Positions 24,192 to 26,144 of a stretch of 64,000 nt of DNA are shown piece by piece. Numbering within the stretch: position 1 is the stretch's first letter; every line of letters begins with the position of its first letter. The stretch is from Halorubrum lacusprofundi ATCC 49239 (GTDB lineage Archaea > Halobacteriota > Halobacteria > Halobacteriales > Haloferacaceae), in the NCBI RefSeq assembly GCF_000022205.1, contig NC_012029.1, forward strand, positions 2,418,001-2,482,000, read 5' to 3'. Made by a program: the position numbers and the translations under genes. The notes beneath the pieces were generated by a model that did no database searches, had not been told where the DNA came from, and was given only the letters and a program-made list of their open reading frames with translations.

Positions 24192-25535
24192 CTACTCCGC
24201 CGACGCCGGGCGTCTGATCCCCCGGATCTCGAACCGCGCCCCGCCGTCGGCCGCGTCGACCGCCTCGACGGTCCACCCGTGGGCGGTGGCGATCTCTTTG
24301 ACGATCGCCAGCCCGAACCCGGTGTTCCCGGAGACCGCGCTCGCGCCGGGCTCGAAGAGGTTCTCGCGGACCGTGTCGGGAATTCCGGACCCGTCGTCCT
24401 CGACGAAGAACCCGTCCGAGAGGTCACCGACACGGATCTGTACGTCGTCGCCGGCGTGTTCCACGCCATTACGAATGAGGTTCTCGAACAGGTTGCGGAG
24501 TCGGTCCGGGTCGGCCAGCGCCTCGCCGTCGACCTCGACTGACAGCGAGGCCGGGCCGGTGTCGACCGTCTCCCAGCTGTCGGCGACAACCTCGGCGACG
24601 GCGACCGGCTCCGGGTCGCCGACGGTCTCGCCCTCGCGGGCGAGCGTGAGGGTGTGTTCGACGATCGACTCGATCCGATCGAGCGCGTCGGCCGCGGCGT
24701 CGAGATGCGATGAGTCATCGGCCAGCTCCCGCGCGAGCTCGACGCGGCCCTGCGCGACGTTGAGTGGGTTCCGAAGGTCGTGCGAGACGATGCCCGCGAA
24801 GGAGTCGAGCCGATCGTTCTGGCGTTCGAGCGCCGCCTCGCGGTCCTTGAACGCCGTGATATTCTCCTGGAAGCCGACCCACTCCGAGACGGACCCGTCG
24901 CCGGCGCGGATCGGCGCGACGCTGACCCGGTTCCAGAACGGCGTGCCTTCCTTCCGGTAGTTCAACAGCTCGACGCTTTCCGGCTCCTCGGCGTCGATCG
25001 CCTCCCGGAGCCGGGCGACCGGCCTCTCGTCGGTGTCTTCTCCCTGCAGGAACCGGCAGTTGACGCCGACCGCGTCGTCACGGTCGTAGCCGGTCATCTC
25101 GACGAACCGGTCGTTGACGTACACCATCGGGTTGTCCGACAGGGCCGGGTCGGAGATCGTGATGCCGACGGGGGCCTCGTCGAGCGCCCGCGTCTTCGTC
25201 TCCAGTTCCTCGCGGCGCGCGCGCTCGTCGGAGACGTCTCGGAGGATGCCGACGCTCCCCTCGAACTCCTCGCTCTCGTACGGGAGCGCGGCCATGTGGT
25301 CTCGACAGGGGATCGGCTCGCCCGCCTTCGGAACGATATCTACCGAGAAGTGCACCACCTCGGGCCCAGTACTCGAAAGGACCCGACCCAGCCGGTCCTC
25401 GGCCTCGTCGACCGCCGCGTCGTCCTTTATCAGTCCCGGGGTGCTGCCGATTATCTCTTCGCGGTCGTAGCCGGTCAGCTCCGCGAACGGCTCGTTGACG
25501 AAGCGGAAGACGCCGGTCTCGTCGACGACGTACAC
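24192..25535 (-). CDS. PAS-PAS histidine kinase, downstream part of an amber-split gene
   Basis: This 447-residue part holds PAS 1 (GVFRFVNEPFAELTGYDREE), PAS 2 (VYVNDRFVEMTGYDRDDAVG), the H-box with His252 (IVSHDLRNPLNV) and an intact ATPase domain (N box FENLIRNGVEHAG, G1 VEDDGSGIPD, G2 GFGLAIVKE). It is in the same frame as the receiver gene at 25656-25973, separated by an amber codon. The 120 bases after the amber (KGGPEQLRRLANRVEQAVEE) encode a linker of the type normally found inside one protein. The first ATG after it is used here as the start, but no promoter or ribosome site is evident, so expression is doubtful. Confidence 0.75.
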   Translation of the reverse strand: MYVVDETGVFRFVNEPFAELTGYDREEIIGSTPGLIKDDAAVDEAEDRLGRVLSSTGPEVVHFSVDIVPKAGEPIPCRDHMAALPYESEEFEGSVGILRDVSDERARREELETKTRALDEAPVGITISDPALSDNPMVYVNDRFVEMTGYDRDDAVGVNCRFLQGEDTDERPVARLREAIDAEEPESVELLNYRKEGTPFWNRVSVAPIRAGDGSVSEWVGFQENITAFKDREAALERQNDRLDSFAGIVSHDLRNPLNVAQGRVELARELADDSSHLDAAADALDRIESIVEHTLTLAREGETVGDPEPVAVAEVVADSWETVDTGPASLSVEVDGEALADPDRLRNLFENLIRNGVEHAGDDVQIRVGDLSDGFFVEDDGSGIPDTVRENLFEPGASAVSGNTGFGLAIVKEIATAHGWTVEAVDAADGGARFEIRGIRRPASAE

Positions 25536-25655
25536 GGGGTACCCGAGCGCGTCGATGATCGTCGAGTAGCGGTCGGCGATCTCGCGGGTCCGGTGCTCTT
25601 CGACCGCCTGCTCGACCCGGTTCGCGAGCCGGCGGAGCTGCTCGGGACCGCCCTT

Positions 25656-25973
25656 CTAGAAGTACCCGGTGACTCCCGCGTTAAGCGCTTGGCTGGCGAT
25701 CTCCTCGGACCCCTTCCCGGTGTAGAGAACGAACGGGAGCCGGCGGTGTGCCGCGTGAACGGCCTCGAACAGCTCCAGCCCGTCCATGCCGGGCATGTCG
25801 TAGTCGCTGACGACGCAGTCGAACTCGCCCTCGTCGAGCGCGTCGGCCGCGGCCGACGGCTCGGTGACGCTCGTCACCGCGACGGACGCCAGCTCGCGTT
25901 CGAGGAACGCCTCCGTGAGGTCCAGCACGGACGGGTCGTCGTCGACGTGTAACACGTCGATCCGTTCGGACAT
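25656..25973 (-). CDS. Response-regulator receiver, upstream part of an amber-split gene
   Basis: A 105-residue receiver domain: acidic pocket VDDD (10-13), phospho-acceptor Asp57 (CVVSDYDMPGMDG) and the conserved Lys (VLYTGKGSEEI). It ends GVTGYF, then TAG at 25656-25658, then an open frame into the PAS/histidine-kinase region. In related haloarchaeal proteins a Gln or similar residue is usual at this spot and the receiver continues into the kinase, so CAG to TAG is the simplest explanation. A TATA-like GTTTATCTG box ~27 bases upstream of the ATG shows the gene has a proper promoter. The last helix of the receiver fold is probably missing. Confidence 0.8.
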   Translation of the reverse strand: MSERIDVLHVDDDPSVLDLTEAFLERELASVAVTSVTEPSAAADALDEGEFDCVVSDYDMPGMDGLELFEAVHAAHRRLPFVLYTGKGSEEIASQALNAGVTGYF

Positions 25974-26144
25974 GGCGCGGTCTTCGGGCCGTCCAGATAA
26001 ACGGATATCGGCTCAGCTATCAGTTCTGAGGATCGTCGGGCGTCGACGGCCGCGGTCGGAGGCGTTCCGTCCACGAGCGAGGGTCGTTTCACTATCGCCG
26101 CGCGTGGCTGGTTCTTAAGGCCGCCCGGCGCGGAGCCTCGGGCG

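Follow-up and report, generated by a model that had tools for sequence, protein, structure and literature searches.

A private amber codon interrupts a probable blue-light receptor kinase gene in Halorubrum lacusprofundi

Among solved structures, the best match to the sensor domain at the locus described here is the LOV domain of Bacillus subtilis YtvA, a blue-light photoreceptor whose output domain is a STAS domain, unlike the kinase output of the H. lacusprofundi gene. LOV histidine kinases have also been described in haloarchaea from Lake Diamante (PMC12202551). These proteins carry a receiver and a PAS domain at the N-terminus and a histidine kinase at the C-terminus, a receiver-PAS-LOV-kinase type of architecture, and their LOV domain is scored as PAS by Pfam. 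The H. lacusprofundi gene is alike in each of these respects, and its FWN followed by Arg resembles group A of that paper, the main text of which makes no mention of Halorubrum. Unlike the kinases reported there, the H. lacusprofundi copy has a nonsense codon after residue 105. Its receiver belongs to the same family as those of FixJ and CheY, with the acidic pocket, D57, T85 and K107 aligned or conserved, but the H. lacusprofundi ORF terminates ahead of K107. In its single premature stop, the undamaged remainder of the frame and its privacy to one genome, the gene is like the point-nonsense pseudogenes of other prokaryotes, and we see no difference in kind from them.

The genome of H. lacusprofundi, a salt-loving archaeon from Antarctica (3 contigs, 3,692,576 bases), carries the gene on its chromosome of 2,735,295 bases, within the stretch of 64,000 nucleotides analysed here, which we call the window (Table 1). 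A first-pass annotation of the window had described an amber codon splitting a receiver/PAS/histidine-kinase gene, with the same frame continuing into two PAS domains and a complete kinase and with all other motifs undamaged. This description is confirmed, with the gene on the minus strand. The coding strand across the premature stop reads TAC TTC TAG AAG GGC (GYF*KGG); 487 open codons follow before the terminator, and there is no other stop within the 593 codons. The upstream ORF matches the Pfam Response_reg model (2.7e-20), while the downstream frame of 487 amino acids matches PAS, PAS, HisKA and HATPase_c in that order. The receiver acidic pocket (D11-D13), the phosphoacceptor D57, T85, C306, H398, N502 and the glycines of the DxGxG and GFGL motifs are all kept in the broken copy, as they are in 41 of 41 other orthologues.

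Table 1. Features of the interrupted gene, in window coordinates
Feature	Position	Strand	Remark
Whole interrupted gene, receiver-PAS-LOV-HisKA-HATPase_c	24192..25973	-	593 codons ahead of its own TAG terminator
Premature amber codon, codon 106	25656..25658	-	Gln codon in 41/41 other distinct orthologues
Truncated receiver ORF, 105 aa, from ATG 25973	25656..25973	-	stops short of conserved K107
Codon 107 (Lys), at the conserved lysine position of receivers	25653..25655	-	Lys in 42/42 orthologues
PAS1, residues 135-247	25233..25571	-	Pfam
GTG codon 147, within PAS1	25533..25535	-	lone ATG/GTG/TTG in codons 107-199
PAS2 = LOV domain, residues 269-374	24852..25169	-	photoactive Cys306 in NCRFLQ (305-310)
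HisKA (390-448, H398) and HATPase_c (488-584)	24222..24806	-	motifs intact
Natural terminator	24192..24194	-	also TAG
CGTTTAT, TATA-like element	25997..26003	-	about 28 nt 5' of the ATG

What the first-pass annotation missed is that the second PAS domain is a LOV domain. Residues 262-391 match the model of the YtvA blue-light photoreceptor, with an E-value of 4.6e-49 for the whole protein, although the score falls below the curated cut-off of that family, as is expected when only a single domain is shared. Compared with the Protein Data Bank, the same stretch matches LOV structures of YtvA, phototropin and a blue-light kinase with E-values down to 7.5e-33, the best being 2mwg and 2pr5, which we take to be the YtvA LOV domain of B. 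subtilis. The GxNCRFLQ motif is present as GVNCRFLQ (residues 303-310) and was also found with a DNA pattern. In the structure-match alignment NCRFLQ, two Asn and one Gln are identical to YtvA, and these Asn, Asn and Gln are presumably the flavin-contacting residues. Judged from the structure matches and from GVNCRFLQ with its Cys, the gene encoded a receiver-PAS-LOV-histidine kinase, probably for blue-light sensing.

The comparison with relatives drew on 107 loci (L011-L117) plus L001, among which copies of the same genomes overlap. Codons were counted in 42 distinct sequences of >66% identity and near full length, from H. lacusprofundi, other Halorubrum and one genome named Halobellus captivus; left out were one frameshifted locus (L070), two more distant ones (L069 and L081) and a remainder of paralogues or partial copies. 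Codon 106 is CAG in 40 of these sequences, CAA in one and TAG in H. lacusprofundi only. All 41 others have a single open frame, and a Gln codon had likewise been found in 29 of 29 members of the first set of relatives. The frame read through the stop aligns with the orthologues over the full length at 68-89% identity. Since the stop is found in H. lacusprofundi alone among the genomes compared, the two halves are one ancestral gene, which bears out the proposed CAG to TAG change; the opposite outcome, relatives with two separate genes, was seen in 0 of the 41. The additional stops in two relatives (G026 and G014) turned out to be natural terminators. Nor do two of the three flagged paralogues (L003 and L006; the third is on contig C3) point to a wider habit of broken kinases in this genome, as their stops lie outside the aligned stretch. 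In Halorubrum tebenquichense DSM 14210 (L070:5148-5224) the same gene is spread over two overlapping frames; the break, close to residues 382-410, is apparently an independent frameshift or a draft-assembly error.

Of the three explanations the annotation had left side by side, namely a recent mutation, a sequencing error and real read-through, we favour the first. We put at roughly 80% the probability that a recent C-to-T nonsense change of Gln codon 106 to amber inactivated the LOV kinase in the ATCC 49239/ACAM 34 lineage, and the premature stop most likely reflects a recent and unremarkable loss of a single gene. Broken genes are nothing unusual in this organism, for which 105 pseudogenes among 3725 genes are given in the genome report (PMC5018182).

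An error in the Sanger-based JGI assembly, made in sequencing or in cloning, would mean that the true codon is CAG and the gene intact. This is unlikely, even though the remaining frame is intact with an omega well below 1, the difference is a single base, and the coverage is stated as only about 12-14x (PMC5018182). The same report gives the finished sequence an error rate of less than 1 in 50,000 bases, which puts the expected number of errors in the gene, whatever their type, below 0.04. When two stocks of ACAM 34 were resequenced with PacBio, chromosome 1 proved to be 99.99% and 99.999% identical (PMC10544981). The higher figure belongs to ACAM34_UNSW, for which the one minor change named on chromosome 1 is an intergenic gap of 23 nt, with the proviso that single-base differences are perhaps unlisted; the available text of the report does not mention the codon 106 site. 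It is the finishing quality, together with this near-identical resequencing, that makes a real and recent nonsense mutation likelier than an error. Literature on stop codon readthrough in Halorubrum, on blue light or LOV in H. lacusprofundi and on candidate Hlac locus tags yielded nothing on the site. The phylogeny of a moss paper includes two H. lacusprofundi accessions, neither of which could be linked to the broken gene.

The substitution pattern bears on the age of the stop. With H. salsamenti, the nearest relative, as sister and six outgroups, omega behind the stop is 0.28 on the H. lacusprofundi branch (bootstrap 0.20-0.40), far under 1, and 0.18 (0.11-0.29) on the sister branch. Purifying selection thus acted on the frame behind the stop over most of the branch, so the stop is either young or an error; the pattern fits both and is by itself compatible with read-through. 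The difference between the two branches (own minus sister, -0.01 to 0.23) spans zero and is not significant. Ahead of the stop, where sites are few, omega is 0.17 on the H. lacusprofundi branch and 0.27 on the sister branch. A mild relaxation behind the stop is possible, and the loss may go further back than "recent" implies, because the value behind the stop somewhat exceeds that of the sister, whereas in the adjacent MFS gene the order is inverted (0.11 own vs 0.17 sister).

It is quite improbable that the amber codon is kept in natural populations, with low-level decoding or restart supplying a little LOV kinase, either full-length or receiver-free. If it were so, the decoding would amount to read-through of a stop codon in the light sensor of a haloarchaeon. 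Genuine translational read-through, with some full-length kinase made, is a still fainter prospect. The downstream frame is intact and under constraint, as read-through would have it, but the stop is absent from 41 of 41 other orthologues; TAG in one sequence of 42 is unlike a programmed amber or pyrrolysine site, where a conserved stop would be looked for. The terminator of the gene is itself TAG, so suppression would join the kinase and the transporter downstream of it into one in-frame product. The amber suppressor that the first-pass annotation proposed to look for did not appear: no CUA anticodon is present among 48 Rfam tRNA hits, with anticodons assigned by ARAGORN (one only with an intron allowed), an inventory that is incomplete because a Trp tRNA, for which an intron is expected, is not among the 48. 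A PylS N-terminal model gave no match in the genome and did match the positive control, Methanosarcina. Two working pieces, a receiver fragment and a PAS-LOV-kinase started separately at GTG 147 with LOV, HisKA and HATPase_c whole, are hardly credible, since a start there would leave PAS1 12 residues short at its N-terminus, no Shine-Dalgarno-like (GGAGG-like) sequence is visible just upstream of it (CGCGCTCGGGTACCCC), the GTG is merely a valine codon, written GTG in 16 of 42 orthologues, and the receiver would be without its lysine.

If the nonsense mutation is real, as we favour, translation would end at residue 105. The stop lies one codon ahead of K107, the position aligned with the lysine of the FixJ and DctD receivers, so the 105-residue product lacks both this conserved lysine, at the end of beta-5, and the last helix, alpha-5. 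The first-pass annotation did not remark on the missing lysine. As predicted from these losses, the receiver should be dead and is probably unstable. The PAS-LOV-kinase part would not be produced in a useful amount because it has no well-placed start, and light signalling through this kinase would be lost, while the second LOV kinase of the genome would stay intact.

This second NCRFLQ LOV histidine kinase is an open frame of 605 codons on another contig (C3; L167:247-2061), in which no receiver match was found. The open frame rules out a loss of all LOV sensing, and blue-light sensing therefore need not vanish altogether. A search of 52 genomes of the genus, H. lacusprofundi included, gave an orthologous match in 44 others and distant paralogues alone in 7. 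The type-strain sequence thus has only a broken version of a LOV kinase found in 44 of the 51 other Halorubrum genomes searched, and blue-light experiments in this model archaeon should not assume this kinase. While the event is ordinary, in that one photoreceptor of a familiar type carries one nonsense codon, a mutation that is real and fixed would make the strain a natural knock-out, open to comparison with relatives whose gene is whole and with the second LOV kinase.

The neighbourhood of the gene is the same in most orthologue loci. Among 9 aligned upstream regions, the TATA-like element of Table 1 appears as TTTAT in 7 cases and as TTTAC in the other 2. An element of this kind is consistent with a leaderless haloarchaeal promoter, and its conservation agrees with the earlier suggestion that the truncated receiver keeps its promoter. 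Next to it and divergent from it lies a gene for a DNA polymerase of the Y family (dinB-like; 26145-27575, plus strand), and an MFS transporter gene follows downstream; among 34 named orthologue loci, 29 have a divergent dinB no more than about 500 bp away and 31 have the MFS gene downstream. No paper on a link between LOV and dinB was found in the literature on LOV, dinB, archaea and blue light; a tie between light sensing and translesion repair is possible. The LOV-kinase gene and the dinB-like gene share about 170 bp (25973-26145).

Two features of the local sequence may be added. The premature stop created a CTAG (TTCTAGAA), a tetranucleotide seen 15 times in the whole window against 37 expected from trinucleotides. 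The C-to-T change sits at a CC dipyrimidine, and ultraviolet C-to-T changes are common at dipyrimidines.
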